DNA of 64,000 bases from Odiellus spinosus. Its lineage: Eukaryota > Arthropoda > Arachnida > Opiliones > Phalangiidae. A program made the position numbers and the translations under genes. Location of the stretch: NCBI GenBank assembly GCA_963920705.1, contig CAWUCO010000268.1:248001-312000 (forward strand), read 5' to 3'. The notes under the pieces were generated by a model. The model had not been told where the DNA came from. It searched no databases and saw only the letters and a program-made list of their open reading frames with translations. This document shows, in pieces, positions 1 through 38,395 of this stretch; positions within the stretch are counted from its first letter, which is position 1; each line of letters opens with the position of its first letter.

Positions 1-106
1 TAAATCGTTTAAAAATCAAAAGTTTTGTGTCCATTTTAATCCAATAATCTTGGATTTTTAAGTGTTTTTGCTTAATTTTAACCAATTTTATATTTGTCAC
101 AATTTT

Positions 107-12200: not shown

Positions 12201-14656
12201 CTCTTGTTTTTTAGATAGACCAATATTTGCTCTTTTGAGTGGTCTTAATTTTGTCTAAATCGCTTAAAAATCAAAAGTTTGTGTCCATTTTAATCCGATA
12301 ATCTTGGATTTTTAAGTGTTTTTGCTTTATTTTAACCAATTTTATATTTGTCACAATTTTGCAATTTAGACAAAACCAAAGTCATTCGAAAGAGCAATTA
12401 ATGGACAGTCTAAATAACAAGAGTTTTCAAAAATCCGTTGAAAAACAAGAAAAATATGGCCAATTCAAGAAATCATACAATATCAAAATAGTCAAATTTC
12501 AGATTTTCAAAATTCGCTTTTTGATATTACATGTTTTTTGAATTGTCCATATTTTCCATGTTTTTCAACGGATTTTCCAAAACTCTTGATTTTCAGATAG
12601 ACCAATATTTGCTCTTTCGAGTGGTCTTAATTTTGTCTAAATCGCTTAAAAATCAAAAGTTTTGTGTCCATTTTAATCCAATAATCTTGGATTTTTAAGT
12701 GTTTTTGCTTTATTTTAACCAATTTTATATTTGTCACAATTTTGCAATTTAGACAAAACCAAAGTCATTCGAAAGAGCAATTAATGTACAGTCTAAATAA
12801 CAAGAGTTTTCAAAAATCCGTTGAAAAACAAGAAAAATGTGGCCAATTCAAGAAATCATACAATATCAAAATAGTCAAATTTCAGATTTTAAAAATTCGC
12901 TTTTTGATATTAGATGCTTTTTGAATTGTCCATATTTTCCATGTTTTTCAACGGATTTTCCAAAACTCTTGTTTTTTAGATAGACCAATATTTGCTCTTT
13001 CGAGTGGTCTTAATTTTGTCTAAATCGCTTAAAAATCAAAAGTTTTGTGTCCATTTTAATCCAATAATCTTGGATTTTTAAGTGTTTTTGCTTAATTTTA
13101 ACCAATTTTATATTTGTCACAATTTTGCAATTTAGACAAAACCAAAGTCATTCGAAAGAGCAATTAATGGACAGTCTAAATAACAAGAGTTTTCAAAAAT
13201 CCGTTGAAAAACAAGAAAAATATGGCCAATTCAAGAAATCATACATTATCAAAATAGTCAAATTTCAGATTTTAAAAATTCGCTTTTTGATATTAGATGC
13301 TTTTTGAATTGTCCATATTTTCCATGTTTTTCAACGGATTTTCCAAAACTCTTGTTTTTTAGATAGACCAATATTTGCTCTTTTGAGTGGTCTTAATTTT
13401 GTCTAAATCGCTTAAAAATCAAAAGTTTGTGTCCATTTTAATCCGATAATCTTGGATTTTTAAGTGTTTTTGCTTTATTTTAACCAATTTTATATTTGTC
13501 ACAATTTTGCAATTTAGACAAAACCAAAGTCATTCGAAAGAGCAATTAATGGACAGTCTAAATAACAAGAGTTTTCAAAAATCCGTTGAAAAACAAGAAA
13601 AATATGGCCAATTCAAGAAATCATACAATATCAAAATAGTCAAATTTCAGATTTTCAAAATTCGCTTTTTGATATTAGATGTTTTTTGAATTGTCCATAT
13701 TTTCCATGTTTTTCAACGGATTTTCCAAAACTCTTGATTTTCAGATAGACCAATATTTGCTCTTTCGAGTGGTCTTAATTTTGTCTAAATCGCTTAAAAA
13801 TCAAAAGTTTTGTGTCCATTTTAATCCAATAATCTTGGATTTTTAAGTGTTTTTGCTTTATTTTAACCAATTTTATATTTGTCACAATTTTGCAATTTAG
13901 ACAAAACCAAAGTCATTCGAAAGAGCAATTAATGGACAGTCTAAATAGCAAGAGTTTTCAAAAATCCGTTAAAAAACAAGAAAAATATGGCCAATTCAAC
14001 AAATCATACAATATCAAAATAGTCAAATTTCAGATTTTAAAAATTGGCTTTTTGATATTAGATGTTTTTTGAATTGTCCATATTTTCCATGTTTTTCAAC
14101 GGATTTTCCAAAACTCGTGATTTTCAGATAGACCAATATTTGCTCTTTCGAGTGATCTTAATTTTGTCTAAATCGCTTAAAAATCAAAAGTTTTGTGTCC
14201 ATTTTAATCCAATAATCTTGGATTTTTAAGTGTTTTTGCTTTATTTTAACCAATTTTATATTTGTCACAATTTTGCAATTTAGACAAAAACAAAGTCATT
14301 CGAAAGAGCAATTAATGGACAGTCTAAATAACAAGAGTTTTCAAAAATCCGTTGAAAAACAAGAAAAATGTGGCCAATTCAAGAAATCATACAATATAAA
14401 AATAGTCAAATTTCAGATTTTAAAAATTCGCTTTTTGATATTAGATGCTTTTTGAATTGTCCATATTTTCCATGTTTTTCAACGGATTTTCCAAAACTCT
14501 TGTTTTTTAGATAGACCAATATTTGCTCTTTCGAGGGTCTTAATTTTGTCTAAATCGCTTAAAAATCAAAAGTTTTGTGTCCATTTGAATCCAATAATCT
14601 TGGATTTTTAAGTGTTTTTGCTTTATTTTAACCAATTTTATATTTGTCACAATTTT

Positions 14657-17600: not shown

Positions 17601-18482
17601 TTAATTTTGTCTAAATCGCTTAAAAATCAAAAGTTTTGTGTCCATTTGAATCCAATAATCTTGGATTTTTAAGTGTTTTTGCTTTATTTTAACCAATTTT
17701 ATATTTGTCACAATTTTGCAATTTAGACAAAACCAAAGTCATTCGAAAGAGCAATTAATGGACAGTCTAAATAGCAAGAGTTTTCAAAAATCCGTTGAAA
17801 AACAAGAAAAATATGGCCAATTCAACAAATCATACAATATCAAAATAGTCAAATTTCAGATTTTAAAAATTCGCTTTTTGATATTAGATGTTTTTTGAAT
17901 TGTCCATATTTTCCATGTTTTTCAACGGATTTTCCAAAACTCTTGTTTTTTAGATAGACCAATATTTGCTCTTTCGAGTGGTCTTAATTTTGTCTAAATC
18001 GCTTAAAAATCAAAAGTTTTGTGTCCATTTTAATCCAATAATCTTGGATTTTTAAGTGTTTTTGCTTTATTTTAACCAATTTTATATTTGTCACAATTTT
18101 GCAATTTAGACAAAACCAAAGTCATTCGAAAGAGCAATTAATGGACAGTCTAAATAACAAGAGTTTTCAAAAATCCGTTGAAAAACAAGAAAAATGTGGC
18201 CAATTCAAGAAATCATACAATATAAAAATAGTCAAATTTCAGATTTTAAAAATTCGCTTTTTGATATTAGATGCTTTTTGAATTGTCCATATTTTCCATG
18301 TTTTTCAACGGATTTTCCAAAACTCTTGTTTTTTAGATAGACCAATATTTGCTCTTTCGAGGGTCTTAATTTTGTCTAAATCGCTTAAAAATCAAAAGTT
18401 TTGTGTCCATTTGAATCCAATAATCTTGGATTTTTAAGTGTTTTTGCTTTATTTTAACCAATTTTATATTTGTCACAATTTT
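14657..18482 (+). repeat. Five-monomer higher-order repeat, two tandem copies of 1,913 bp
   Basis: The blocks 14657-16569 and 16570-18482 match monomer by monomer. Private variants recur exactly 1,913 bp apart: GGCCAGTTC near 15141 and 17054, and AATATAAAAATAG near 14394, 16307 and 18219. The one-base deletion TCGAGGGTC recurs twice per block. The order is AGC-type, TGT/GCT, TGT/GTT, AGC-type, TGT/GCT with the AATATAAAA variant. The 1,913 bp reflects two 382-bp monomers. Confidence 0.88.
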
Positions 18483-20013
18483 GCAATTTAGACAAAACCA
18501 AAGTCATTCGAAAGAGCAATTAATGGACAGTCTATATAGCAAGAGTTTTCAAAAATCCGTTGAAAAACAAGAAAAATATGGCCAATTCAACAAATCATAC
18601 AATATCAAAATAGTCAAATTTCAGATTTTAAAAATTCGCTTTTTGATATTAGATGTTTTTTGAATTGTCCATATTTTCCATGTTTTTCAACGGATTTTCC
18701 AAAACTCTTGTTTTTTAGATAGACCAATATTTGCTCTTTCGAGTGGTCTTAATTTTGTCTAAATCGCTTAAAAATCAAAAGTTTTGTGTCCATTTTAATC
18801 CAATAATCTTGGATTTTTAAGTGTTTTTGCTTTATTTTAACCAATTTTATATTTGTCACAATTTTGCAATTTAGACAAAACCAAAGTCATTCGAAAGAGC
18901 AATTAATGGACAGTCTAAATAACAAGAGTTTTCAAAAATCCGTTGAAAAACAAGAAAAATGTGGCCAATTCAAGAAATCATACAATATCAAAATAGTCAA
19001 ATTTCAGATTTTAAAAATTCGCTTTTTGATATTAGATGCTTTTTGAATTGTCCATATTTTCCATGTTTTTCAACGGATTTTCCAAAACTCTTGTTTTTTA
19101 GATAGACCAATATTTGCTCTTTCGAGGGTCTTAATTTTGTCTAAATCGCTTAAAAATCAAAAGTTTTGTGTCCATTTGAATCCAATAATCTTGGATTTTT
19201 AAGTGTTTTTGCTTTATTTTAACCAATTTTATATTTGTCACAATTTTGCAATTTAGACAAAACCAAAGTCATTCGAAAGAGCAATTAATGGACAGTCTAT
19301 ATAGCAAGAGTTTTCAAAAATCCGTTGAAAAACAAGAAAAATATGGCCAATTCAACAAATCATACAATATCAAAATAGTCAAATTTCAGATTTTAAAAAT
19401 TCGCTTTTTGATATTAGATGTTTTTTGAATTGTCCATATTTTCCATGTTTTTCAACGGATTTTCCAAAACTCTTGTTTTTTAGATAGACCAATATTTGCT
19501 CTTTCGAGTGGTCTTAATTTTGTCTAAATCGCTTAAAAATCAAAAGTTTTGTGTCCATTTTAATCCAATAATCTTGGATTTTTAAGTGTTTTTGCTTTAT
19601 TTTAACCAATTTTATATTTGTCACAATTTTGCAATTTAGACAAAACCAAAGTCATTCGAAAGAGCAATTAATGGACAGTCTAAATAACAAGAGTTTTCAA
19701 AAATCCGTTGAAAAACAAGAAAAATGTGGCCAATTCAAGAAATCATACAATATCAAAATAGTCAAATTTCAGATTTTAAAAATTCGCTTTTTGATATTAG
19801 ATGCTTTTTGAATTGTCCATATTTTCCATGTTTTTCAACGGATTTTCCAAAAGTCTTGATTTTCAGATAGACCAATATTTGCTCTTTCGAGTGGTCTTAA
19901 TTTTGTCTAAATCGCTTAAAAATCAAAAGTTTTGTGTCCATTTTAATCCAATAATCTTGGATTTTTAAGTGTTTTTTCTTTATTTTAACCAATTTTATAT
20001 TTGTCACAATTTT
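18483..20013 (+). repeat. Two-monomer duplication marked by CTATATAGC
   Basis: The monomers beginning at 18483 and 19248 share a private CTATATAGCAAG where other AGC-type copies read CTAAATAGCAAG. They lie 765 bp apart with matching following monomers for most of their length. This indicates a recent duplication of a dimer inserted into the five-monomer pattern. The next AATATAAAA landmark (near 20898) is displaced by seven monomers rather than five. Confidence 0.8.
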
Positions 20014-21867
20014 GCAATTTAGACAAAACCAAAGTCATTCGAAAGAGCAATTAATGGACAGTCTAAATAACAAGAGTTTTCAAAAATCCGTTGAAAAACA
20101 AGAAAAATGTGGCCAATTCAAGAAATCATACAATATCAAAATAGTCAAATTTCAGATTTTAAAAATTCGCTTTTTGATATTAGATGCTTTTTGAATTGTC
20201 CATATTTTCCATGTTTTTCAACGGATTTTCCAAAACTCTTGTTTTTTAGATAGACCAATATTTGCTCTTTCGAGGGTCTTAATTTTGTCTAAATCGCTTA
20301 AAAATCAAAAGTTTTGTGTCCATTTGAATCCAATAATCTTGGATTTTTAAGTGTTTTTGCTTTATTTTAACCAATTTTATATTTGTCACAATTTTGCAAT
20401 TTAGACAAAACCAAAGTCATTCGAAAGAGCAATTAATGGACAGTCTAAATAGCAAGAGTTTTCAAAAATCCGTTGAAAAACAAGAAAAATATGGCCAATT
20501 CAACAAATCATACAATATCAAAATAGTCAAATTTCAGATTTTAAAAATTCGCTTTTTGATATTAGATGTTTTTTGAATTGTCCATATTTTCCATGTTTTT
20601 CAACGGATTTTCAAAAACTCTTGTTTTTTAGATAGACCAATATTTGCTCTTTCGAGTGGTCTTAATTTTGTCTAAATCGCTTAAAAATCAAAAGTTTTGT
20701 GTCCATTTTAATCCAATAATCTTGGATTTTTAAGTGTTTTTGCTTTATTTTAACCAATTTTATATTTGTCACAATTTTGCAATTTAGACAAAACCAAAGT
20801 CATTCGAAAGAGCAATTAATGGACAGTCTAAATAACAAGAGTTTTCAAAAATCCGTTGAAAAACAAGAAAAATGTGGCCAATTCAAGAAACCATACAATA
20901 TAAAAATAGTCAAATTTCAGATTTTAAAAATTCGCTTTTTGATATTAGATGCTTTTTGAATTGTCCATATTTTCCATGTTTTTCAACGGATTTTCCAAAA
21001 CTCTTGTTTTTTAGATAGACCAATATTTGCTCTTTCGAGGGTCTTAATTTTGTCTAAATCGCTTAAAAATCAAAAGTTTTGTGTCCATTTGAATCCAATA
21101 ATCTTGGATTTTTAAGTGTTTTTGCTTTATTTTAACCAATTTTATATTTGTCACAATTTTGCAATTTAGACAAAACCAAAGTCATTCGAAAGAGCAATTA
21201 ATGGACAGTCTAAATAGCAAGAGTTTTCAAAAATCCGTTGAAAAACAAGAAAAATATGGCCAATTCAACAAATCATACAATATCAAAATAGTCAAATTTC
21301 AGATTTTAAAAATTCGCTTTTTGATATTAGATGTTTTTTGAATTGTCCATATTTTCCATGTTTTTCAACGGATTTTCCAAAACTCTTGTTTTTTAGATAG
21401 ACCAATATTTGCTCTTTCGAGTGGTCTTAATTTTGTCTAAATCGCTTAAAAATCAAAAGTTTTGTGTCCATTTTAATCCAATAATCTTGGATTTTTAAGT
21501 GTTTTTGCTTTATTTTAACCAATTTTATATTTGTCACAATTTTGCAATTTAGACAAAACCAAAGTCATTCGAAAGAGCAATTAATGGACAGTCTAAATAA
21601 CAAGAGTTTTCAAAAATCCGTTGAAAAACAAGAAAAATATGGCCAATTCAAGAAATCATACAATATCAAAATAGTCAAATTTCAGATTTTAAAAATTCGC
21701 TTTTTGATATTAGATGTTTTTTGAATTGTCCATATTTTCCATGTTTTTCAACGGATTTTCCAAAACTCTTGTTTTTTAGATAGACCAATATTTGCTCTTT
21801 CGAGTGGTCTTAATTTTGTCTAAATCGCTTAAAAATCAAAAGTTTTGTGTCCATTTGAATCCAATAA

Positions 21868-22250
21868 TCTTGGATTTTTAAGTGTTTAGCTTAATTTTAA
21901 CCAATTTTATATTGGTCACAATTTTGCAATTTAGACAAAACCACAGTCATTCGAAAGAGCAATTAATGGACAGTCTAAATAATAAGAGTTTTCAAAAATC
22001 CGTTGAAAAACAAGAAAAATATGGCCAATTCAAGAAACCATACAATATCAAAATAGTCAAATTTCAGATTTTAAAAATTCGCTTTTTGATATTAGATGTT
22101 TTTTGAATTGTCCATATTTTCCATGTTTTTCAACGGATTTTCAAAAACTCTTGTTTTTTAGATAGACCAATATTTGCTCTTTCGAGTGGTCTTAATTTTG
22201 TCTAAATCGCTTAAAAATCAAAAGTTTTGTGTCCATTTTAATCCAATAAT
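21868..22250 (+). repeat. Minus-family variant monomer inside the + array
   Basis: This copy carries five marks that are rare in the + half but occur together in the - half: a shortened linker AGTGTTTAGC, TTGGTCACAA, ACCACAGTC, AATAATAAG and AAACCATAC. The same combination occurs in the - copy ending near 36790. Read in monomer sense, the two match with about one difference over the open frame. The linker deletion removes the usual stop and lengthens the frame to 74 codons (21882-22106). Exact borders are approximate. Confidence 0.85.
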
Positions 22251-22691
22251 CTTGGATTTTTAAGTGTTTTTGCTTTATTTTAACCAATTTTATATTTGTC
22301 ACAATTTTGCAATTTAGACAAAACCAAAGTCATTCGAAAGAGCAATTAATGGTCAGTCTAAATAACAAGAGTTTTCAAAAATCCGTTGAAAAACAAGAAA
22401 AATGTGGCCAATTCAAGAAATCATACAATATCAAAATAGTCAAATTTCAGATTTTAAAAATTCGCTTTTTGATATTAGATGCTTTTTGAATTGTCCATAT
22501 TTTCCAGGTTTTTCAACGGATTTTCCAAAACTCTTGTTTTTTAGATAGACCAATATTTGCTCTTTCGAGTGGTCTTAATTTTGTCTAAATCGCTTAAAAA
22601 TTAAAAGTTTTGTGTCCATTTGAATCCAATAATCTTGGATTTTTAAGTGTTTTTGCTTTATTTTAACCAATTTTATATTTGTCACAATTTT

Positions 22692-22819
22692 GCAATTTAG
22701 ACAAAACCAAAGTCATTCGAAAGAGCAATTAATGGACAGTCTAAATAGCAAGAGTTTTCAAAAATCCGTTGAAAAACAAGAAAAATATGGCCAATTCAAC
22801 AAATCATACAATATCAAAA
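22692..22819 (+). repeat. Left palindrome arm of reference monomer
   Basis: About 128 bp from GCAATTTAGACA to AATATCAAAA. Aligned to the reverse complement of 22850-22976 it shows about 21 mismatches and one indel, roughly 83% identity by hand alignment. The best conserved blocks are ATTTAGACAAAA, TCGAAAGAGCAA, AACAAGAGTTTT, AAAATCCGTTGAAAAACA and AATATCAAAA. It contains three A5 tracts starting at 22760, 22772 and 22781. Confidence 0.93.
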
Positions 22820-22849
22820 TAGTCAAATTTCAGATTTTAAAAATTCGCT
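22820..22849 (+). other. Palindrome loop of reference monomer
   Basis: A 30-nt single-copy centre separates the two inverted arms and would be the loop of an extruded hairpin. It carries one of the most variable sites of the family (TTAAAA, TTCAAA or TTAAGA before ATTCGC). The TTAAGA form creates a GAATTC site in some + monomers, for example near 2168 and 3317. Confidence 0.88.
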
Positions 22850-22976
22850 TTTTGATATTAGATGTTTTTTGAATTGTCCATATTTTCCATGTTTTTCAAC
22901 GGATTTTCCAAAACTCTTGTTTTTTAGATAGACCAATATTTGCTCTTTCGAGTGGTCTTAATTTTGTCTAAATCGC
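22850..22976 (+). repeat. Right palindrome arm of reference monomer
   Basis: About 127 bp from TTTTGATATT to TAAATCGC, the inverted partner of the left arm. Two alternative states recur across the + half: CTTGTTTTTTAGATAG and CTTGATTTTCAGATAG. The first is closer to the left arm complement. The tail TCGAGTGGTC has variants TCGCGTGGTC, TTGAGTGGTC and TCGAGGGTC. The last is a one-base deletion that explains most of the 382-bp monomers between 14.2 and 21.5 kb. Confidence 0.93.
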
Positions 22977-23074
22977 TTAAAAATCAAAAGTTTTGTGTCC
23001 ATTTGAATCCAATAATCTTGGATTTTTAAGTGTTTTTGCTTTATTTTAACCAATTTTATATTTGTCACAATTTT
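22977..23074 (+). other. Linker of reference monomer
   Basis: This 98-bp segment joins consecutive palindromes and has its own symmetry. CTTAAAAATC (22976-22985, beginning at the last base of the right arm) pairs with GATTTTTAAG (23021-23030). Inside it, AATCCAA (23006-23012) pairs with TTGGATT (23018-23024) around the 5-nt loop TAATC. Downstream T-tracts begin at 23023, 23033, 23044 and 23054. Variable sites include CATTTTAATCC/CATTTGAATCC, CCAATAATC/CCGATAATC/CCAATAGTC and GCTTTATTTT/GCTTAATTTT. No gene is seen. Confidence 0.85.
23023..23057 (+). other. Helically phased T-tracts (predicted DNA bend)
   Basis: Four T-tracts of 4-5 bases start at 23023, 23033, 23044 and 23054, spaced 10, 11 and 10 bp. 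This is close to one helical turn, the classic arrangement for intrinsically curved DNA. The pattern recurs in nearly every monomer linker, for example starts at 1204, 1214, 1225 and 1235. Curvature itself is inferred, not seen. Confidence 0.7.
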
Positions 23075-24606
23075 GCAATTTAGACAAAACCAAAGTCATT
23101 CGAAAGAGCAATTAATGGACAGTCTAAATAACAAGAGTTTTCAAAAATCCGTTGAAAAACAAGAAAAATATGGCCAATTCAAGAAATCATACAAAATCAA
23201 AATAGTCAAATTTCAGATTTTAAAAATTCGCTTTTTGATATTAGATGTTTTTTGAATTGTCCATATTTTCCATGTTTTTCAACGGATTTTCCAACACTCT
23301 TGATTTTCAGATAGACCAATATTTGCTCTTTCGAGTGGTCTTAATTTTGTCTAAATCGCTTAAAAATCAAAAGTTTTGTGTCCATTTGAATCCAATAATC
23401 TTGGATTTTTAAGTGTTTTTGCTTTATTTTAACCAATTTTATATTTGTCACAATTTTGCAATTTAGACAAAACCAAAGTCATTCGAAAGAGCAATTATTG
23501 GACAGTCTAAATAGCAAGAGTTTTCAAAAATCCGTTGAAAAACAAGAAAAATATGGCCAATTCAACAAATCATACAATATCAAAATAGTCAAATTTCAGA
23601 TTTTAAAAATTCGCTTTTTGATATTAGATGTTTTTTGAATTGTCCATATTTTCCATGTTTTTCAACGGATTTTCCAAAACTCTTGTTTTTTAGATAGACC
23701 AATATTTGCTCTTTCGAGTGGTCTTAATTTTGTCTAAATCGCTTAAAAATCAAAAGTTTTGTGTCCATTTGAATCCAATAATCTTGGATTTTTAAGTGTT
23801 TTTGCTTTATTTTAACCAATTTTATATTTGTCACAATTTTGCAATTTAGACAAAACCAAAGTCATTCGAAAGAGCAATTAATGGACAGTCTAAATAACAA
23901 GAGTTTTCAAAAATCCGTTGAAAAACAAGAAAAATATGGCCAATTCAAGAAATCATACAAAATCAAAATAGTCAAATTTCAGATTTTAAAAATTCGCTTT
24001 TTGATATTAGATGTTTTTTGAATTGTCCATATTTTCCATGTTTTTCAACGGATTTTCCAACACTCTTGATTTTCAGATAGACCAATATTTGCTCTTTCGA
24101 GTGGTCTTAATTTTGTCTAAATCGCTTAAAAATCAAAAGTTTTGTGTCCATTTGAATCCAATAATCTTGGATTTTTAAGTGTTTTTGCTTTATTTTAACC
24201 AATTTTATATTTGTCACAATTTTGCAATTTAGACAAAACCAAAGTCATTCGAAAGAGCAATTAATGGACAGTCTAAATAGCAAGAGTTTTCAAAAATCCG
24301 TTGAAAAACAAGAAAAATATGGCCAATTCAACAAATCATACAATATCAAAATAGTCAAATTTCAGATTTTAAAAATTCGCTTTTTGATATTAGATGTTTT
24401 TTGAATTGTCCATATTTTCCATGTTTTTCAACGGATTTTCCAAAACTCTTGTTTTTTAGATAGACCAATATTTGCTCTTTCGAGTGGTCTTAATTTTGTC
24501 TAAATCGCTTAAAAATCAAAAGTTTTGTGTCCATTTGAATCCAATAATCTTGGATTTTTAAGTGTTTTTGCTTTATTTTAACCAATTTTATATTTGTCAC
24601 AATTTT
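23075..24606 (+). repeat. Dimeric higher-order repeat (766 bp, two copies)
   Basis: Units 23075-23840 and 23841-24606 each consist of a monomer with TACAAAATC (instead of TACAATATC) and CCAACACTCTTG, followed by an AGC-type monomer with TTCAACAAATC. The marks recur exactly 766 bp apart. The first unit has a private AATTATTGG near 23496, so the copies are not fully identical. Confidence 0.85.
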
Positions 24607-26138
24607 GCAATTTAGACAAAACCAAAGTCATTCGAAAGAGCAATTAATGGACAGTCTAAATAACAAGAGTTTTCAAAAATCCGTTGAAAAACAAGAAAAA
24701 TGTGGCCAATTCAAGAAATCATAGAATATCAAAATAGTCAAATTTCAGATTTTAAAAATTCGCTTTTTGATATTAGATGTTTTTTGAATTGTCCATATTT
24801 TCCATGTTTTTCAACGGATTTTCCAAAACTCTTGATTTTCAGATAGACCAATATTTGCTCTTTCGAGTGGTCTTAATTTTGTCTAAATCGCTTAAAAATC
24901 AAAAGTTTTGTGTCCATTTGAATCCAATAATCTTGGATTTTTAAGTGTTTTTGCTTTATTTTAACCAATTTTATATTTGTCACAATTTTGCAATTTAGAC
25001 AAAACCAAAGTCATTCGAAAGAGCAATTAAAGGACAGTCTAAATAATAAGAGTTTTCAAAAATCCGTTGAAAAACAAGAAAAATATGGCCAATTCAAGAA
25101 ATCATACAATATCAAAATAGTCAAATTTCAGATTTTAAAAATTCGCTTTTTGATATTAGATGTTTTTTGAATTGTCCATATTTTCCATGTTTTTTAACGG
25201 ATTTTCCAAAACTCTTGTTTTTTAGATAGACCAATATTTGCTCTTTCGAGTGGTCTTAATTTTGTCTTAATCGCTTAAAAATCAAAAGTTTTGTGTCCAT
25301 TTTAATCCAATAATCTTGGATTTTTAAGTGTTTTTGCTTTATTTTAACCAATTTTATATTTGTCACAATTTTGCAATTTAGACAAAACCAAAGTCATTCG
25401 AAAGAGCAATTAATGGACAGTCTAAATAACAAGAGTTTTCAAAAATCCGTTGAAAAACAAGAAAAATGTGGCCAATTCAAGAAATCATAGAATATCAAAA
25501 TAGTCAAATTTCAGATTTTAAAAATTCGCTTTTTGATATTAGATGTTTTTTGAATTGTCCATATTTTCCATGTTTTTCAACGGATTTTCCAAAACTCTTG
25601 ATTTTCAGATAGACCAATATTTGCTCTTTCGAGTGGTCTTAATTTTGTCTAAATCGCTTAAAAATCAAAAGTTTTGTGTCCATTTTAATCCAATAATCTT
25701 GGATTTTTAAGTGTTTTTGCTTTATTTTAACCAATTTTATATTTGTCACAATTTTGCAATTTAGACAAAACCAAAGTCATTCGAAAGAGCAATTAAAGGA
25801 CAGTCTAAATAATAAGAGTTTTCAAAAATCCGTTGAAAAACAAGAAAAATATGGCCAATTCAAGAAATCATACAATATCAAAATAGTCAAATTTCAGATT
25901 TTAAAAATTCGCTTTTTGATATTAGATGTTTTTTGAATTGTCCATATTTTCCATGTTTTTTAACGGATTTTCCAAAACTCTTGTTTTTTAGATAGACCAA
26001 TATTTGCTCTTTCGAGTGGTCTTAATTTTGTCTTAATCGCTTAAAAATCAAAAGTTTTGTGTCCATTTTAATCCAATAATCTTGGATTTTTAAGTGTTTT
26101 TGCTTTATTTGAACCAATTTTATATTTGTCACAATTTT
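24607..26138 (+). repeat. Dimeric higher-order repeat with TAG and AAAGGAC marks (766 bp, two copies)
   Basis: Units 24607-25372 and 25373-26138 each contain a TGT-type monomer with AATCATAGAAT, which closes the frame, followed by a monomer with AATTAAAGGACAG, AATAATAAG, TTTTTTAACGG and TTGTCTTAATCGC. All recur 766 bp apart. The second monomer has the AATAATAAG mark that is typical of the - half. Confidence 0.85.
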
Positions 26139-27285
26139 GCAATTTAGACAAAACCAAAGTCATTCAAAAGAGCAACTAATGGACAGTCTAAATAATAAGA
26201 GTTTTCAAAAATCCGTTGAAAAACAAGAAAAATATGGCCAATTCAAGAAATCATACAATATCAAAATAGTCAAATTTCAGATTTTAAGAATTCGCTTTTT
26301 GATATTAGATGCTTTTTGAATTGTCCATATTTTCCATGTTTTTCAACGGATTATCCAAAACTCTTGTTTTTTAGATAGACCAATATTTGCTCTTTCGAGT
26401 GGTCTTAATTTTGTCTAAATCGCTTAAAAATCAAAAGTTTTGTGTCCATTTGAATCCAATAATCTTGGATTTTTAAGTGTTTTTGCTTTATTTTAACCAA
26501 TTTTATATTTGTCACAAATTTGCAATTTAGACAAAACCAAAGTCATTCGAAAGAGCAATTAATGGACAGTCTAAATAACAAGAGTTTTCAAAAATCCGTT
26601 GAAAAACAAGAAAAATGTGGCCAGTTCAAGAAATCATACAATATCAAAATAGTCAAATTTCAGATTTTAAAAATTCGCTTTTTGATATTAGATGTTTTTT
26701 GAATTGTCCATATTTTCCATGTTTTTCAATGGATTTTCCAAAACTCTTGTTTTTTAGATAGACCAATATTTGCTCTTTCGAGTGGTCTTAATTTTGTCTA
26801 AATCGCTTAAAAATCAAAAGTTTTGTGTCCATTTGAATCCAATAATCTTGGATTTTTAAGTGTTTTTGCTTTATTTTAACCAATTTTATATTTGTCACAA
26901 TTTTGCAATTTAGACAAAACCAAAGTCATTCGAAAGAGCAATTAATGGACAGTCTAAATAACAAGAGTTTTCAAAAATCCGTTGAAAAACAAGAAAAATA
27001 TGGCCAATTCAAGAAATCATACAATATCAAAATAGTCAAATTTCAGATTTTAAAAATTCGCTTTTTGATATTAGATGTTTTTTGAATTGTCCATATTTTC
27101 CATGTTTTTTAACGGATTTTCCAAAACTCTTGATTTTCAGATAGACCAATATTTGCTCTTTCGAGTGGTCTTAATTTTGTCTAAATCGCTTAAAAATCAA
27201 AAGTTTTGTGTCCATTTTAATCCAATAATCTTGGATTTTTAAGTGTTTTTGCTTTATTTTAACCAATTTTATATTTGTCACAATT

Positions 27286-27574
27286 TTGCAATTTAGACAA
27301 AACCAAAGTCATTCGAAAGAGCAATTAATGGACAGTCTAGATAATAAGAGTTTTCAAAAATCCGTTGAAAAACAAGAAAAATATGGCCAATTCAAAAAAC
27401 ATCTAATATCAAAAAGCGAATTTTGAAAATCTGAAATTTGACTATTTTGATATTGTATGGTTTCTTGAATTGGCCATATTTTTCTTGTTTTTCAACGGAT
27501 TTTTGAAAACTCTTATTATTTAGACTGTCCATTAATTGCTCTTTCGAATGACTTTGGTTTTGTCTAAATTGCAA
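27286..27574. other. Head-to-head orientation switch (fold-back palindrome)
   Basis: The left arm of the last + monomer (27286-27395) and the left arm of the first - monomer (27465-27574) are reverse complements with one difference seen (CTAGAT versus CTAAAT). They flank a 69-bp asymmetric centre, 27396-27464, with the axis near 27430. The reading changes from left arm to reversed right arm at CAATTCAA (27388-27395). This 8-mer is shared by the left arm and the reverse complement of the right arm, so it is the microhomology at which the strands swapped. Beyond the arms the linkers also mirror each other with few differences, until a 9-bp deletion near 27755 breaks register. This is the only orientation change in the window. 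Confidence 0.95.
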
Positions 27575-30500
27575 AATTGTGACAATTATAAAATTGGTTA
27601 AAATTAAGCAAAAACACTTAAAAATCCAAGATTATTGGATTCAAATGGACACAAAACTTTTGATTTTTAAGCGATTTAGACAAAATTAAGACCACTCGAA
27701 AGAGCAAATATTGGTCTATCTGAAAATCAAGAGTTTTGGAAAATCCGTTGAAAAATATGGACAATTCAAAAAACATCTAATATCAAAAAGCGAATTTTTA
27801 AAATCTGAAATTTGACTATTTTGATATTCTATGGTTTCTTGAATTGGCCATATTTTTCTTGTTTTTCAACGGATTTTTGAAAACTCTTATTATTTAGACT
27901 GTCCATTAATTGCTCTTTCGAATGACTTTGGTTTTGTCTAAATTGCAAAATTGTGACAAATATAAAATTGGTTAAAATTAAGCAAAAACACTTAAAAATA
28001 TAAGATTATTGGATTCAAATGGACACAAAACTTTTGATTTTTAAGCGATTTAGACAAAATTAAGACCACTCGAAAGAGCAAATATTGGTCTATCTGAAAA
28101 TCAAGAGTTTTGGAAAATCCGTTGAAAAACATGGAAAATATATCCAATTCAAAAAACATCTAATATCAAAAAGCGAATTTTTAAAATCTGAAATTTGACC
28201 TTTTTGATATTGTATGGTGTCTTGAATTGGCCATATTTTTCTTGTTTTTCAACGGATTTTTGAAAACTCTTATTATTTAGACTGTCCATTAATTGCTCTT
28301 TCTAATGACTTTGGTTTTGTCTAAATTGCAAAATTGTGACAATTATAAAATTGGTTAAAATTAAGCAAAAACACTTAAAAATCCAAGATTATTACATTCA
28401 AATGGACACAAAACTTTTGATTTTTAAGCGATTTAGACAAAATTAAACCACTCGAAAGAGCAAATATTGGTCTATCTAAAAAACATGAGTTTTGGAAAAT
28501 CCCTTGAAAAACATGGAAAATATGGACAATTCAAAAAACATCTAATATCAAAAAGCGAATTTTGAAAATCTGAAATTTGACTATTTTGATATTCTATGAT
28601 TTGTTGAATTGGCCATATTTTTCTTGTTTTTCAACGGATTTTTGAAAACTCTTATTATTTAGACTGTCCATTAATTGCTCTTTCGAATGACTTTGGTTTT
28701 GTCTAAATTGCAAAATTGTGACAAATATAAAATTGGTTAAAATTAAGCAAAAACACTTAAAAATCCAAGATTATTGGATTCAAATGGACACAAAACTTTT
28801 GATTTTTAAGCGATTTAGACAAAATTAAGACCACTCGAAAGAGCAAATATTGGTCTATCTGAAAATCAAGAGTTTTGGAAAATCCGTTGAAAAACATGGA
28901 AAATATATCCAATTCAAAAAACATCTAATATCAAAAAGCGAATTTTTAAAATCTGAAATTTGACTATTTTGATATTGTATGATTTCTTGAATTGGCCATA
29001 TTTTTCTTGTTTTTCAACGGATTTTTGAAAACTCTTGTTATTTAGACTGTCCATTAATTGCTCTTTCGAATGACTTTGGCTTTGTCTAAATTGCAAAATT
29101 GTGACAATTATAAAATTGGTTAAAATTAAGCAAAAACACTTAAAAATCCAAGATTATTACATTCAAATGGACACAAAACTTTTGATTTTTAAGCGATTTA
29201 GACAAAATTAAACCACTCGAAAGAGCAAATATTGGTCTATCTAAAAAACATGAGTTTTGGAAAATCCCTTGAAAAACATGGAAAATATGGACAATTCAAA
29301 AAACATCTAATATCAAAAAGCGAATTTTGAAAATATGAAATTTGACTATTTTGATATTCTATGATTTGTTGAATTGGCCATATTTTTCTTGTTTTTCAAC
29401 GGATTTTTGAAAACTCTTATTATTAAGACTGTCCATTAATTGCTCTTTCGAATGACTTTGGTTTTGTCTAAATTGCAAAATTGTGACAAATATAAAATTG
29501 ATTAAAATTAAGCAAAAACACTTAAAAATCCAAGATTATTGGATTCAAATGATCACAAAACTTTTGATTTTTAAGCGATTTAGACAAAATTAAGACCACT
29601 CGAAAGAGCAAATATTGGTCTATCTGAAAATCAAGAGTTTTGGAAAATCCGTTGAAAAACATGGAAAATATATCCAATTCAAAAAACATCTAATATCAAA
29701 AAGCGAATTTTTAAAATCTGAAATTTGACTATTTTGATATTGTATGGTTTCTTGAATTGGCCATATTTTTCTTGTTTTTCAACGGATTTTTGAAAACTCT
29801 TATTATTTAGACTGTCCATTAATTGCTCTTTCGAATGACTTTGGTTTTGTCTAAATTGCAAAATTGTGACAATTATAAAATTGGTTAAAATTAAGCAAAA
29901 ACACTTAAAAATCCAAGATTATTGGATTCAAATGGACACCAAACTTTTGATTTTTAAGCGATTTAGACAAAATTAAGACCACTCGAAAGAGCAAATATTG
30001 GTCTATCTGAAAATCAAGAGTTTTGGAAAATCCGTTGAAAAATATGGACAATTCAAAAAACATCTAATATCAAAAAGCGAATTTTGAAAATCTGAAATTT
30101 GACTATTTTGATATTCTATGATTTCTTGAATTGGCCATATTTTTCTTGTTTTTCAACGGATTTTTGAAAACTCTTATTATTAAGACTGTCCATTAATTGC
30201 TCTTTCGAATGACTTTGGTTTTGTCTAAATTGCAAAATTGTGACAAATATAAAATTGGTTAAAATTAAGCAAAAACACTTAAAAATCCAAGATTATTGGA
30301 TTCAAATGGACACAAAACTTTTGATTTTTAAGCGATTTAGAGAAAATTAAGACCACTCGAAAGAGCAAATATTGGTCTATCTGAAAATCAAGAGTTTTGG
30401 AAAATCCGTTGAAAAACATGGAAAATATATCCAATTCAAAAAACATCTAATATCAAAAAGCGAATTTTTAAAATCTGAAATTTGACTATTTTGATATTGT

Positions 30501-31900
30501 ATGGTTTCTTGAATTGGCCATATTTTTCTTGTTTTTCAACGGATTTTTGAAAACTCTTATTATTAAGACTGTCCATTAATTGCTCTTTCGAATGACTTTG
30601 GTTTTGTCTAAATTGCAAAATTGTGACAAATATAAAATTGATTAAAATTAAGCAAAAACACTTAAAAATCCAAGATTATTGGATTCAAATGGACACAAAA
30701 CTTTTGATTTTTAAGCGATTTAGACAAAATTAAGACCATTCGAAAGAGCAAATATTGGTCTATCTGAAAATCAAGAGTTTTGGAAAATCCGTTGAAAAAC
30801 ATGGAAAATATATGCAATTCAAAAAACATCTAATATCAAAAAGCGAATTTTTAAAATCTGAAATTTGACTATTTTGATATTGTATGGTTTCTTGAATTGG
30901 CCATATTTTTCTTGTTTTTCAACGGATTTTTGAAAACTCTTATTATTTAGACTGTCCATTAATTGCTCTTTCGAATGACTTTGGTTTTGTCTAAATTGCA
31001 AAATTGTGACAAATATAAAATTGATTAAAATTAAGCAAAAACACTTAAAAATCCAAGATTATTGGATTCAAATGGACACAACACTTTTGATTTTTAAGCG
31101 ATTTAGACAAAATTAAGACCACTCGAAAGAGCAAATATTGGTCTATCTGAAAATCAAGAGTTTTGGAAAATCCGTTGAAAAACATGGAAAATATATCCAA
31201 TTCAAAAAACATCTAATATCAAAAAGCGAATTTTTAAAATCTGAAATTTGACTATTTCGATATTGTATGGTTTCTTGAATTGGCCATATTTTTCTTGTTT
31301 TTCAACGGATTTTTGAAAACTCTTATTATTTAGACTGTCCATTAATTGCTCTTTCGAATGGCTTTGGTTTTGTCTAAATTGCAAAATTGTGACAATTATA
31401 AAATTGGTTAAAATTAAGCAAAAACACTTAAAAATCCAAGATTATTGGATTAAAATGGACCCAAAACTTTTGATTTTTAAGCGATTTAGACAAAATTAAA
31501 AACCACTCGAAAGAGCAAATATTGGTCTATCTGAAAATCAAGAGTTTTGGAAAATCCGTTGAAAAACATGGAAAATATGGACAATTCAAAAAACATCTAA
31601 TATCAAAAAGCGAATTTTGAAAATCTGAAATTTGACTATTTTGATATTCTATGATTTCTTGAATTGGCCATATTTTTCTTGTTTTTCAACGGATTTTTGA
31701 AAACTCTTATTATTTAGACTGTCCATTAATTGCTCTTTCGAATGACTTTGGTTTTGTCTAAATTGCAAAATTGTGACAAATATAAAATTGGTTAAAATTA
31801 AGCAAAAACGCTTAAAAATCGAAGATTATTGGATTAAAATGGACACAAAACTTTTGATTTTTAAGCGATTTAGACAAAATTAAAAACCACTCGAAAGAGC
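27396..31900 (-). repeat. Irregular - monomers next to the switch
   Basis: The monomers here depart most from 383 bp. Two copies lack 9 bp in the right arm (GTTGAAAAATATGGAC near 27755 and 30042, where others read GTTGAAAAACATGGAAAATATGGAC in two pieces). They lie 2,287 bp apart, about six monomers, suggesting a duplicated block. Many copies have CTGAAAATCAAGAG and ATATATCCAATTC on the + strand, and two have an extra base in AATTAAAAACCACTCG near 31498 and 31885. Confidence 0.75.
28140..29669 (-). repeat. Dimer duplication (765 bp) near the switch
   Basis: ATATATCCAATTC (about 28139 and 28904), ATTACATTCAAATGG (28391 and 29156), AAATTAAACCACTCG (about 28440 and 29205) and AAATCCCTTG (about 28497 and 29263) recur 765 bp apart. 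They define two consecutive two-monomer units. GTATGGTGTC near 28216 is private to the first. Confidence 0.75.
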
Positions 31901-31929
31901 AAATATTGGTCTATCTGAAAATCAAGAGT

Positions 31930-34900
31930 TTTGGAAAATCCGTTGAAAAACATGGAAAATATGGACAATTCAAAAAACATCTAATATCAAAAAGCGAATT
32001 TTTAAAATCTGAAATTTGACTATTTTGATATTCTATGATTTCTTGAATTGGCCATATTTTTCTTGTTTTTCAACGGATTTTTGAAAACTCTTATTATTTA
32101 GACTGTCCATTAATTGCTCTTTCGAATGACTTTGATTTTGTCTAAATTGCAAAATTGTGACCAATATAAAATTGGTTAAAATTAAGCAAAAACGCTTAAA
32201 AATCCAAGATTATTGGATTAAAATGGACACAAAACTTTTGATTTTAAAGCGATTTAGACAAAATTAAGACCACTCGAAAGAGCAAATATTGGTCTATCTG
32301 AAAATCAAGAGTTTTGGAAAATCCGTTGAAAAACATGGAAAATATGGACAATTCAAAAAACATCTAATATCAAAAAGCGAATTTTTAAAATCTGAAATTT
32401 GACTATTTTGATATTGTATGGTTTCTTGAATTGGCCATATTTTTCTTGTTTTTCAACGGATTTTTGAAAACTCTTATTATTTAGACTGTCCATTAATTGC
32501 TCTTTCGAATGACTTTGGTTTTGTCTAAATTGCAAAATTGTGACCAATATAAAATTGGTTAAAATTAAGCAAAAACACTTAAAAATCCAAGATTATTGGA
32601 TTCAAATGGACACAAAACTTTTGATTTTTAAGCGATTTAGACAAAATTAAGACCACTCGAAAGAGCAAATATTGGTCTATCTAAAAAACAAGAGTTTTGG
32701 AAAATCCGTTGAAAAACATGGAAAATATGGACAATTCAAAAAACATCTAATATCAAAAAGCGAATTTTTAAAATCTGAAATTTGACTATTTTGATATTGT
32801 ATGGTTTCTTGAATTGGCCATATTTTTCTTGTTTTTCAACGGATTTTTGAAAACTCTTATTATTTAGACTGTCCATTAATTGCTCTTTCGAATGACTGTG
32901 GTTTTGTCTAAATTGCAAAATTGTGACCAATATAAAATTGGTAAAAATTAAGCAAAAACACTTAAAAATCCAAGATTATTGGATTCAAATGGACACAAAA
33001 CTTTTGATTTTTAAGCGATTTAGACAAAATTAAGACCACTCGAAAGAGCAAATATTGGTCTATCTAAAAAACAAGAGTTTTGGAAAATCCATTGAAAAAC
33101 ATGGAAAATATGGACAATTCAAAAAACATCTAATATCAAAAAGCGAATTTTTAAAATCTGAAATTTGACTATTTTGATATTGTATGGTTTCTTGAATTGG
33201 CCATATTTTTCTTGTTTTTCAACGGATTTTTGAAAACTCTTATTATTTAGACTGTCCATTAATTGCTCTTTCGAATGACTTTGGTTTTGTCTAAATTGCA
33301 AAATTGTGACCAATATAAAATTGGTTAAAATTAAGCAAAAACGCTTAAAAATCCAAGATTATTGGATTCAAATGGACACAAAACTTTTGATTTTTAAGCG
33401 ATTTAGACAAAATTAAGACCACTCGAAAGAGCAAATATTGGTCTATCTAAAAAACATGAGTTTTGGAAAATCCCTTGAAAAACATGGAAAATATGGACAA
33501 TTCAAAAAACATCTAATATCAAAAAGCGAATTTTTAAAATCTGAAATTTGACTATTTTGATATTGTATGATTTCTTGAATTGGCCATATTTTTCTTGTTT
33601 TTCAACGGATTTTTGAAAACTCTTATTATTTAGACTGTCCATTAATTGCTCTTTTGAATGACTTTGGTTTTGTCTAAATTGCAAAATTGTGACAAATATA
33701 AAATTGGTTAAAATTAAGCAAAAACACTTAAAAATCCAAGATTATTGGATTCAAATGGACACAAAACTTTTGATTTTTAAGCGATTAAGACAAAATTAAG
33801 ACCACTCGAAAGAGCAAATATTGGTCTATCTAAAAAACAAGAGTTTTGGAAAATCCGTTAAAAAACATGGAAAATATGGACAATTCAAAAAACATCTAAT
33901 ATCAAAAAGCGAATTTTTAAAATCTGAAATTTGACTATTTTGATATTCTATGATTTCTTGAATTGGCCATATTTTTCTTGTTTTTCAACGGATTTTTGAA
34001 AACTCTTATTATTTAGACTGTCCATTAATTGCTCTTTCGAATGACTTTGATTTTGTCTAAATTGCAAAATTGTGACCAATATAAAATTGGTTAAAATTAA
34101 GCAAAAACGCTTAAAAATCCAAGATTATTGGATTAAAATGGACACAAAACTTTTGATTTTAAAGCGATTTAGACAAAATTAAGACCACTCGAAAGAGCAA
34201 ATATTGGTCTATCTGAAAATCAAGAGTTTTGGAAAATCCGTTGAAAAACATGGAAAATATGGACAATTCAAAAAACATCTAATATCAAAAAGCGAATTTT
34301 TAAAATCTGAAATTTGACTATTTTGATATTGTATGGTTTCTTGAATTGGCCATATTTTTCTTGTTTTTCAACGGATTTTTGAAAACTCTTATTATTTAGA
34401 CTGTCCATTAATTGCTCTTTCGAATGACTTTGGTTTTGTCTAAATTGCAAAATTGTGACCAATATAAAATTGGTTAAAATTAAGCAAAAACACTTAAAAA
34501 TCCAAGATTATTGGATTCAAATGGACACAAAACTTTTGATTTTTAAGCGATTTAGACAAAATTAAGACCACTCGAAAGAGCAAATATTGGTCTATCTAAA
34601 AAACAAGAGTTTTGGAAAATCCGTTGAAAAACATGGAAAATATGGACAATTCAAAAAACATCTAATATCAAAAAGCGAATTTTTAAAATCTGAAATTTGA
34701 CTATTTTGATATTGTATGGTTTCTTGAATTGGCCATATTTTTCTTGTTTTTCAACGGATTTTTGAAAACTCTTATTATTTAGACTGTCCATTAATTGCTC
34801 TTTCGAATGACTGTGGTTTTGTCTAAATTGCAAAATTGTGACCAATATAAAATTGGTAAAAATTAAGCAAAAACACTTAAAAATCCAAGATTATTGGATT

Positions 34901-35760
34901 CAAATGGACACAAAACTTTTGATTTTTAAGCGATTTAGACAAAATTAAGACCACTCGAAAGAGCAAATATTGGTCTATCTAAAAAACAAGAGTTTTGGAA
35001 AATCCATTGAAAAACATGGAAAATATGGACAATTCAAAAAACATCTAATATCAAAAAGCGAATTTTTAAAATCTGAAATTTGACTATTTTGATATTGTAT
35101 GGTTTCTTGAATTGGCCATATTTTTCTTGTTTTTCAACGGATTTTTGAAAACTCTTATTATTTAGACTGTCCATTAATTGCTCTTTCGAATGACTTTGGT
35201 TTTGTCTAAATTGCAAAATTGTGACCAATATAAAATTGGTTAAAATTAAGCAAAAACGCTTAAAAATCCAAGATTATTGGATTCAAATGGACACAAAACT
35301 TTTGATTTTTAAGCGATTTAGACAAAATTAAGACCACTCGAAAGAGCAAATATTGGTCTATCTAAAAAACATGAGTTTTGGAAAATCCCTTGAAAAACAT
35401 GGAAAATATGGACAATTCAAAAAACATCTAATATCAAAAAGCGAATTTTTAAAATCTGAAATTTGACTATTTTGATATTGTATGATTTCTTGAATTGGCC
35501 ATATTTTTCTTGTTTTTCAACGGATTTTTGAAAACTCTTATTATTTAGACTGTCCATTAATTGCTCTTTTGAATGACTTTGGTTTTGTCTAAATTGCAAA
35601 ATTGTGACAAATATAAAATTGGTTAAAATTAAGCAAAAACACTTAAAAATCCAAGATTATTGGATTCAAATGGACACAAAACTTTTGATTTTTAAGCGAT
35701 TAAGACAAAATTAAGACCACTCGAAAGAGCAAATATTGGTCTATCTAAAAAACAAGAGTT
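31930..35760 (-). repeat. Five-monomer higher-order repeat, two tandem copies of 1,915 bp
   Basis: The blocks of about 31930-33845 and 33846-35760 share a series of marks at exact 1,915-bp offsets: TTTGATTTTGTC (32132/34047), TTTTAAAGCG (about 32243/34158), GACTGTGG (32893/34808), TTGGTAAAAATT (32938/34853), AATCCATTG (33087/35002), CTCTTTTGAATG (33650/35565) and GTTAAAAAACATGG (33857/35772). Edges are approximate, taken from the last matching and first non-matching sites (CTGAAAATC near 31914; GTATGA versus CTATGA near 35860 and 33945). Confidence 0.88.
34066..34448 (-). repeat. Reference monomer, - orientation (383 bp)
   Basis: A complete - unit: left arm 34321-34448, loop 34291-34320, right arm 34164-34290 and linker 34066-34163. 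The subfamily marks are AATAATAAGAG in the left arm, CCATACAAT at its inner end and ATTGGTCAC just outside it, all read on the - strand. On the + strand its linker/right-arm boundary reads TTTTAAAGCG instead of TTTTTAAGCG, a variant shared with the copy 1,915 bp upstream. The frame extends four codons upstream here because the linker reads TTGGTC rather than TTTGTC. Confidence 0.93.
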
Positions 35761-36559
35761 TTGGAAAATCCGTTAAAAAACATGGAAAATATGGACAATT
35801 CAAAAAACATCTAATATCAAAAAGCGAATTTTTAAAATCTGAAATTTGACTATTTTGATATTGTATGATTTCTTGAATTGGCCATATTTTTCTTGTTTTT
35901 CAACGGATTTTTGAAAACTCTTATTATTTAGACTGTCCATTAATTGCTCTTTCGAATGACTTTGGTTTTGTCTAAATTGCAAAATTGTGACAAATATAAA
36001 ATTGGTTAAAATTAAGCAAAAACACTTAAAAATCCAAGATTATTGGATTCAAATGGACACAAAACTTTTGATTTTTAAGCGATTAAGACAAAATTAAGAC
36101 CACTCGAAAGAGCAAATATTGGTCTATCTAAAAAACAAGAGTTTTGGAAAATCCGTTAAAAAACATGGAAAATATGGACAATTCAAAAAACATCTAATAT
36201 CAAAAAGCGAATTTTTAAAATCTGAAATTTGACTATTTTGATATTGTATGATTTCTTGAATTGGCCATATTTTTCTTGTTTTTCAACGGATTTTTGAAAA
36301 CTCTTATTATTTAGACTGTCCATTAATTGCTCTTTCGAATGACTTTGGTTTTGTCTAAATTGCAAAATTGTGACAAATATAAAATTGGTTAAAATTAAGC
36401 AAAAACACTTAAAAATCCAAGATTATTGGATTCAAATGGATACAAAACTTTTGATTTTTAAGCGATTTAGACAAAATTAAGACCACTCGAAAGAGCAAAT
36501 ATTGGTCTATCTAAAAAACAAGAGTTTTGGAAAATCCGTTGAAAAACATGGAAAATATG

Positions 36560-36940
36560 GACAATTCAAAAAACAACTAATATCAAAAAGCGAATTTTTA
36601 AAATCTGAAATTTGACTATTTTGATATTGTATGGTTTCTTGAATTGGCCATATTTTTCTTGTTTTTCAACGGATTTTTGAAAACTCTTATTATTTAGACT
36701 GTCCATTAATTGCTCTTTCGAATGACTGTGGTTTTGTCTAAATTGCAAAATTGTGACCAATATAAAATTGGTTAAAATTAAGCTAAACACTTAAAAATCC
36801 AAGATTATTGGATTCAAATGGACACAAAACTTTTGATTTTTAAGCGATTTAGACAAAATTAAGACCACTCGAAAGAGCAAATATTGGTCTATCTAAAAAA
36901 CAAGAGTTTTGGAAAATCCATTGAAAAACATGGAAAATAT
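36560..36940 (-). repeat. Minus-array partner of the 21.9-kb variant monomer
   Basis: On the + strand this copy reads AAGCTAAACACTT in the linker, GACTGTGGTTTTG in the left arm and GTATGGTTTC at the inner end. These are the exact complements of the rare marks at 21.9-22.1 kb. It also has an open frame of 74 codons (36566-36790). ACAACTAATATC near 36574 is its private difference. The GACTGTGG mark without the linker deletion also occurs near 32893 and 34808. Confidence 0.85.
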
Positions 36941-38395
36941 GGACAATTCAAAAAACATCTAATATCAAAAAGCGAATTTTTAAAATCTGAAATTTGACTA
37001 TTTTGATATTGTATGATTTCTTGAATTGGCCATATTTTTCTTGTTTTTCAACGGATTTTTGAAAACTCTTATTATTTAGACTGTCCATTAATTGCTCTTT
37101 TGAATGACTTTGGTTTTGTCTAAATTGCAAAATTGTGACAAATATAAAATTGGTTAAAATTAAGCAAAAACACTTAAAAATCCAAGATTATTTTATTCAA
37201 ATGGACACAAAACTTTTGATTTTTAAGCGATTAAGACAAAATTAAGACCACTCGAAAGAGCAAATATTGGTCTATCTAAAAAACAAGAGTTTTGGAAAAT
37301 CCGTTAAAAAACATGGAAAATATGGACAATTCAAAAAACATCTAATATCAAAAAGCGAATTTTTAAAATCTGAAATTTGACTATTTTGATATTGTATGAT
37401 TTCTTGAATTGGCCATATTTTTCTTGTTTTTCAACGGATTTTTGAAAACTCTTATTATTTAGACTGTCCATTAATTGCTCTTTCGAATGACTTTGGTTTT
37501 GTCTAAATTGCAAAATTGTGACAAATATAAAATTGGTTAAAATTAAGCAAAAACACTTAAAAATCCAAGATTATTGGATTCAAATGGACACAAAACTTTT
37601 GATTTTTAAGCGATTAAGACAAAATTAAGACCACTCGAAAGAGCAAATATTGGTCTATCTAAAAAACAAGAGTTTTGGAAAATCCGTTAAAAAACATGGA
37701 AAATATGGACAATTCAAAAAACATCTAATATCAAAAAGCGAATTTTTAAAATCTGAAATTTGACTATTTTGATATTGTATGATTTCTTGAATTGGCCATA
37801 TTTTTCTTGTTTTTCAACGGATTTTTGAAAACTCTTATTATTTAGACTGTCCATTAATTGCTCTTTCGAATGACTTTGGTTTTGTCTAAATTGCAAAATT
37901 GTGACAAATATAAAATTGGTTAAAATTAAGCAAAAACACTTAAAAATCCAAGATTATTGGATTCAAATGGACACAAAACTTTTGATTTTTAAGCGATTTA
38001 GACAAAATTAAAAACCACTCGAAAGAGCAAATATTGGTCTATCTGAAAATCAATAGTTTTGGAAAATCCGTTGAAAAACATGGAAAATATGGACAATTCA
38101 AAAAACATCTAATATCAAAAAGCGAATTTTGAAAATCAGAAATTTGACTATTTTGATATTCTATGATTTCTTGAATTGGCCATATTTTTCTTGTTTTTCA
38201 ACGGATTTTTGAAAACTCTTATTATTTAGACTGTCCATTAATTGCTCTTTCGAATGACTTTGGTTTTGTCTAAATTGCAAAATTGTGACCAATATAAAAT
38301 TGGTTAAAATTAAGCAAAAACGCTTAAAAATCCAAGATTATTGGATTAAAATGGACACAAAACTTTTGATTTTTAAGCGATTTAGACAAAATTAA

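Follow-up and report, generated by a model that had tools for sequence, protein, structure and literature searches.

The 64-kb window, by which we mean the whole stretch of DNA analysed here (C261:248001-312000 of a 443-Mb, 286-contig assembly), consists of a single AT-rich (ca. 73% A+T) satellite with a 383-bp monomer whose orientation is reversed at one junction. In the stretches of this assembly that we read, in-register orientation switches are confined to one short arm block of the monomer's internal dyad, and the most likely reading of the junction in the window is that a widespread chimeric arm was copied there, not that a fresh fold-back took place. Our preferred explanation, to which we assign a probability of about 0.6, is that exchange in the register of the dyad produced chimeric arms, that these were spread by satellite turnover, and that a chimeric class that we call X35 has one of its copies at the window's junction.

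Geometry of the junction

Orientation switches were located with a two-orientation, phase-aware Viterbi path (2 orientations x 383 phases), which places the sole switch of the window at 27388 with an ambiguity over exactly the bases CAATTCAA (Table 1), where an earlier sequence-only reading had also put the crossover. That reading had called the reversal single, which holds for the window but not beyond it, given that the flip recurs, with 297 switches in the window and the other stretches read. The two subarrays on either side are multi-kilobase in size and opposed in orientation (27.4 kb forward and 36.6 kb reversed). Among BLAST matches longer than 350 bp, 71 are forward and begin to the left of 27430 and 95 are reversed, and the junction itself is overlapped by one of each kind (forward, 27146-27524; reversed, 27336-27714). 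No open reading frame of at least 100 aa (table 11) was found across the 64-kb window, and an Rfam scan of positions 26000-29000 gave no match.

Table 1. Features of the window, with positions counted from its first base
Feature	Position	Strand	Basis or remark
Forward (F) array of the 383-bp satellite	1..27387	+	Viterbi path all F; forward BLAST matches
Left palindrome arm (h1 half-unit)	27286..27395	+	One mismatch against right arm
18-bp h1/h2 identity tract AAAATCCGTTGAAAAACA	27357..27374	+	Commonest switching tract (206/292, stretches read)
F-to-R switch point, 8-bp identity tract CAATTCAA	27388..27395	.	Class X35 (outer h1, inner h2)
69-bp centre, the monomer's A loop in reverse orientation	27396..27464	.	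Dyad centre 27430
Right palindrome arm	27465..27574	-	One mismatch against left arm
Mirror copy of the 18-bp tract, TGTTTTTCAACGGATTTT	27486..27503	-	
Reversed (R) array of the 383-bp satellite	27396..64000	-	Viterbi path; reversed monomers
R monomers near the junction, R000-R012	27396..32292	-	Mostly more diverged than bulk; locally duplicated variants

The palindrome around the switch has its computed centre at 27430.0, exactly the A centre of the monomer. Its earlier description as near-perfect, with 110-bp arms, one mismatch (27340/27520) and a 69-bp centre, is correct in every figure, though the limit of 110 bp is an arbitrary one: since the same satellite continues on both flanks, in opposite orientation, 110 bp marks no real end of the visible palindrome, and lengthened arms differ at only 4 places over 285 bp and 7 over 298 bp. 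Equal closeness was found in 2.9% of 1,750 sampled pairs of left and right segments, and the left arm is nearer still (3 differences) to another right monomer. The 8-bp arm identity at the crossover is likewise present but says little by itself, because any crossover between part-identical arms must map to an identity tract. A blunt random join would meet the register about once in 383; among the tracts of at least 8 bp shared by the two orientations, 12 of 27 already lie on the dyad diagonal, so that one junction is weak evidence for a hairpin mechanism.

The monomer is a dyad of two half-units

When the consensus was set against its reverse complement at each of the 383 registers, with 200 shuffles as control, one clear dyad emerged (identity 0.627 against a shuffle maximum of 0.44; for the R-side consensus, 0.621 against 0.46). 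Since this dyad has two centres that lie half a monomer apart, the 383-bp monomer is a pair of inverted half-units of ca. 192 bp, h1 and h2. Their identity is 67.7% in a global alignment and reaches 45 of 50 columns in an arm block 35 to 84 bp from the A centre, and the array is laid out as an A-B-A-B chain of loops joined by these arms. Single-strand DNA folding is predicted at -50.4 kcal/mol for the arm region of the monomer (z -9.9 against shuffles) and at -137.8 kcal/mol for the junction (z -28.8). Special conservation of the 18-bp tract was not seen (rank 61 of 383). Six monomer words of 14 to 15 letters had no match in the open papers searched; a 19-base word gave three single matches among viral contigs and no further similarity was better than 27 bp at 96%, which we take as chance.

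In-register orientation switches fall in one arm block in the stretches read

About 272 kb of the assembly were read as stretches, in addition to short loci. Twenty stretches were picked by similarity around some of 94 matches and are biased toward the window's junction; 16 stretches of 4 kb were placed by coordinate on C261, C112, C47 and C100, contigs that had been selected as similarity-search hits while the positions on them had not. The 383-bp satellite is the sole family in the window and in 35 of these 36 stretches (L012-L047), and its presence at points far apart on C261, C112 and C100 suggests large satellite blocks. The one stretch with no copy (L045, C47:100001-104000) carries a short-period repeat tract at 1284-2578 in which several frames are open on both strands.

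Across the window and the 36 stretches, 292 of 297 orientation switches lie exactly in the h1/h2 dyad register, a count that is inflated by copies of the same event; in the window and the coordinate-placed stretches only, 43 of 44 do so. Three of the five off-register switches are within 2 bp of register and two are real exceptions. Every in-register switch (292/292) falls at u=35-84, i.e., within the 50-bp arm block, where u is the distance in bp from the A centre. Exchange points map to the 18-bp tract in 206 cases, to the 8-bp tract in 50, to two 9-bp tracts in 22 and 12, and to a single base between tracts in the remaining 2, with none of the 292 in the outer 12-bp identity tracts (u=106-117 and u=128-139). 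The sequence-only reading had proposed to ask whether other switches also sit inside the arms at short identities; in the stretches read they do, so the monomer's palindrome governs where orientation changes. The register and the limitation to the best-matched block show that the place of exchange is governed by h1/h2 pairing.

All 60 synthetic random joins were placed by the switch finder at the offset given to them, none of them in register, and the in-register fraction stayed stable at switch costs of 8, 25 and 40 (281/287, 280/285 and 227/231, respectively, on 25 stretches). The offsets of eight phase breaks without change of orientation vary, and two (190 and 196) are close to half a monomer; breaks as such are thus not limited to the register.

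Each switch leaves a chimeric arm, either of type X (outer h1 and inner h2) or of the converse type Y, and by tract and type nine chimera classes can be told apart, three of which were seen once or twice. Arms of the Y56 class fall into 13 clusters, which may represent many separate events. On contigs where about half of the arms carry a switch, loop orientation is nearly random (Table 2), with regular exceptions such as a 766-bp head-to-head dimer in L014 (C6). Among the matches listed for C6, the X35 (to 625 kb), Y56 (to 198 kb), h2 (to 81 kb) and h1 (to 32 kb) words are on the plus strand throughout and the Y35 words on both strands; by these matches, the first tens to hundreds of kb of this contig are a strand-asymmetric form of the satellite.

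Table 2. Arms with an orientation change, by sample
Sample	Arms with change/arms
Window	1/334
Coordinate-placed, C261	6/200
Coordinate-placed, C112	27/59
Coordinate-placed, C100	9/20
Coordinate-placed, C47	0/20
Picked, C6	42/102
Picked, C100	96/189
Picked, C112	21/50
Picked, C138/C20/C167	79/152
Picked, C132	5/51
Picked, C261	6/355
Picked, C47	0/101

The junction word is widespread

Genome-wide counts of exact 23-mers at the 8-bp tract, which miss mutated copies, gave 5,322 + 6,528 = 11,850 copies of the X35 word that is the window's exact junction and 485 of Y35, the reciprocal chimera, i.e., a ratio of 24 to 1. The unrecombined words occur 53,267 (h1) and 30,490 (h2) times, Y56 as the converse chimera at the 18-bp tract 8,926 times, and reversed-word controls 0 times. 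On C261, all eight F-to-R switches read (the window's, four coordinate-placed and three picked) are X35, and the 141-bp X35 arm of the window differs from the seven others at 1, 1, 1, 2, 2, 3 and 7 positions, the last being L013. Its G at u=90 is common to just 2 of 47 other X35 arms, both in L014, and two derived bases are common to the X35 arms of C100 (where one row did not align), C138, C20, C167 and C6b and to 2 of the 3 on C112. Separated at more than 3 differences, the 48 X35 arms fall into 4 clusters; of the 48 arm rows compared, one (L020 at 4046) could not be aligned and was left out of interpretation. We infer that X35 arose on one or a few occasions and was copied thereafter. Since nearly all X35 arms on C261 are devoid of shared derived variants, independent exchanges may instead have taken place repeatedly at this tract.

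The matches listed also include at least seven dispersed mini-arrays with a stereotyped spacing of h1 and X35 words (C1:33021216, C2:2550691, C2:8467920, C3:23307311, C4:19303642, C5:7090449 and C5:18269439). Three mini-arrays that were read (L048-L050) are palindromic, fold-back-like elements with the satellite inside, one of them (L049) 96.4% self-complementary across 3,740 bp, and the F/R junction in each is off register (c=46). Such mini-arrays may be a source or vehicle of the satellite.

The two arrays are not mirror copies

There is no sign that the right array is a mirrored copy of the left. With monomers L(i) set against R(i) at the window's junction, offset 0 is no closer than offsets of -8 to 8, and a control with offsets of -5 to 5 gave no mirror order either, including at the second long junction (L013). 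A cruder mirror comparison that had no offset control (identity 0.948-0.977 at L013 and 0.881-0.934 in the window) was set aside because indels shift its result. Near-fixed variants also differ between the arrays, as at site 200, with C in 66 of 70 left monomers and T in 93 of 95 right ones.

As far as the junction the left array is homogeneous; next to it on the right lies a diverged zone, in which R000-R012 show 13 to 20 differences from the R consensus against a bulk mean of 6.1 (the count for R000 takes in some bases left of the switch), with the exceptions of R003 (2), R005 (7), R011 (8) and R012 (9). The R monomers at 27715-28088 and 30002-30375 have a 9-bp deletion in common, R002, R004, R006, R008 and R010 a rare triple change, and R003 and R005 another set of changes; all this sharing is local duplication near the junction. 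Of the 7 left monomers closest to the junction, 6 carry R-type variants, as do 4 of the 63 farther away, and L-type variants occur in R003-R005 and one far R monomer; this clustering is partly circular, since monomers farther off served to define the variants. This mixing across the junction argues against a random misjoin. Of 13 variants at sites where the arms differ, 7 go toward the base of the partner arm, which is no significant arm-to-arm conversion bias (p=0.14).

Origin of the junction

Under the explanation that we prefer, the satellite would act as a chain of alternating A and B hairpin loops linked by arms, in which h1 in one direction could pair with h2 in the other and strand exchange would then flip the orientation of the array. 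As h1 and h2 align in opposite directions, such an exchange would turn the array and leave the A-B-A-B alternation unbroken. It might take the form of a template switch, gene conversion or crossover, either within one monomer or between copies, and the founding event may have been a template switch as well as a recombination of one copy with another. The founding exchanges would have given rise to the chimeric arms X and Y, ordinary satellite turnover would then have copied and spread them, and in the window one X35 copy would divide two arrays, each homogenised on its own since then. The confinement of in-register switches in the stretches read, the recurrence of the junction word across the genome, the imbalance of X35 and Y35 and the lack of mirror order are direct observations; exchange as the cause, non-reciprocal copying and spread by turnover are what these patterns suggest to us.

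The sequence-only reading had instead suggested a template switch or fold-back between the arms of one hairpin; on this model, a fork or broken end switched from arm to arm at this very site and went on to copy the left array backwards, making the right array. The exact hairpin register and the predicted folding of the monomer arm region far above shuffles speak for such an event, and the 24 to 1 excess of X35 over its reciprocal is allowed by non-reciprocal copying. Yet mirror order is absent both here and at L013, the arrays differ at near-fixed sites (C or T at site 200) and the junction word is present 11,850 times, so that an on-site fold-back is already disfavoured and, in our estimate, distinctly unlikely. 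An ordinary reciprocal inversion by recombination of two inverted half-units, whose R-to-F counterpart would lie beyond the window, appears unlikely too. The in-register homology speaks for it, and for the inversion site INV_2 of Tribolium madens ectopic recombination of similar inverted subunits has been proposed (PMC13081366). A reciprocal crossover should, however, leave both ends at the same tract, whereas single-loop runs have same-tract neighbours at chance (59 of 104 against 55.6 expected), X35 and Y35 stand at 11,850:485, and all four short inverted blocks read whole on C261 (L027, L030, L033 and L038) end in unlike tracts, X35 with Y56 or Y76, two of them with an even number of loops. 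With neighbours sharing tracts at chance and X35 so far above Y35, simple reciprocal inversion leaves no trace, and non-reciprocal copying followed by turnover seems to fit better, though drift could also remove reciprocal products.

We give little credence to an assembly or library artefact, in the form of chimeric reads or a misjoin of two arrays. Several satellite contigs (C261, C112, C100, C138, C20 and C167) are indeed sized in whole thousands, as scaffolding cuts would leave them, but several contigs switch in register every few hundred bases, below the usual length of long reads, if such were used, variants are mixed across the junction, and its arms differ where a fold-back read would give identical ones. 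Least probable of all is a site-specific recombinase that flips loops by acting on the 18-bp tract or the 50-bp block: 206 of 292 switches do lie in the 18-bp tract and exchange is found within 50 bp only, but the other 86 exchange points are spread over four further places in the block, the tract is not exceptionally conserved, and homology length alone would probably predict the same place.

Relation to known systems and significance

The nearest described case that we found is that of the (peri)centromeric macro-dyad satellites of Tribolium (PMC13081366). In T. madens, two satellites are arranged in inverted subarrays with conserved inversion sites, those of INV_2 numbering 6,428 with 98.2% conservation, and the authors name Tribolium as the only genus for which such arrays are documented to date (PMC13081366). 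Both systems have long inverted subarrays of one satellite, the TmSat2 monomer also contains inverted segments, and the inversion site itself recurs as a highly similar segment (PMC13081366), represented here by the 11,850 exact copies of the X35 23-mer and its use in 8 of 8 F-to-R switches on C261. Unlike the two intermingled satellites of Tribolium, a major and a minor one, a single family occupies the satellite stretches read here; the switches are resolved to bases within a 50-bp block of the monomer's dyad, in nine chimera classes, and about half of the arms are switched in some contigs as opposed to one switch per several kilobases (PMC13081366). Long internal inverted repeats are also known from the satellites of Trichogramma brassicae (385 bp with 80-bp inverted repeats) and T. 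brevicornis (1061 bp with ca. 470-bp inverted segments), the former, compared by description alone, being nearly the same size as our 383-bp monomer; orientation switching is not described for either in the part of that article available to us (PMC13081366). Different here from T. madens are the confinement of switches to the dyad at base level, the nine chimera classes and the near-random orientation in some contigs.

In the genome isomers of herpesviruses, segments between inverted repeats invert. Segments between inverted homologous arms are likewise found in either orientation here, with the differences that very many loops stand in tandem and that neither ongoing flipping nor a dedicated enzyme is indicated by these sequences. 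The telomere motif of Tribolium is TCAGG, and overlapping genome matches number 9,597 for (TTAGG)6 against 143 for (TCAGG)6; these counts seem unlike Tribolium, and the genome may lie outside that genus. Short TCAGG blocks near contig ends (C1:104-413, C4:25324115-25324374 and C6:24897734-24897928) flip orientation within about 50 to 70 bp, in a genome in which (TTAGG)6 is far commoner.

As a more far-reaching idea that we regard as doubtful though conceivable, loops could be independently invertible, with exchange frequent enough to randomise orientation over whole contigs, and what is maintained would then be the dyad structure and not strand or order, possibly because that structure serves centromeric chromatin. 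To our knowledge, changes in the direction of satellite arrays have usually been guessed from few junctions. The present genome holds thousands of copies of one junction along with several other classes, and register, tract length and reciprocity provide a clean null against which their points of exchange can be placed to within a few bases. It can thus be asked now whether the dyad drives inversion, whether the events are reciprocal and whether the alternation of hairpins survives the randomising of orientation. For recurring conserved inversion sites such as those of Tribolium, our results suggest a simple reason, namely that they would be copied chimeric arms.
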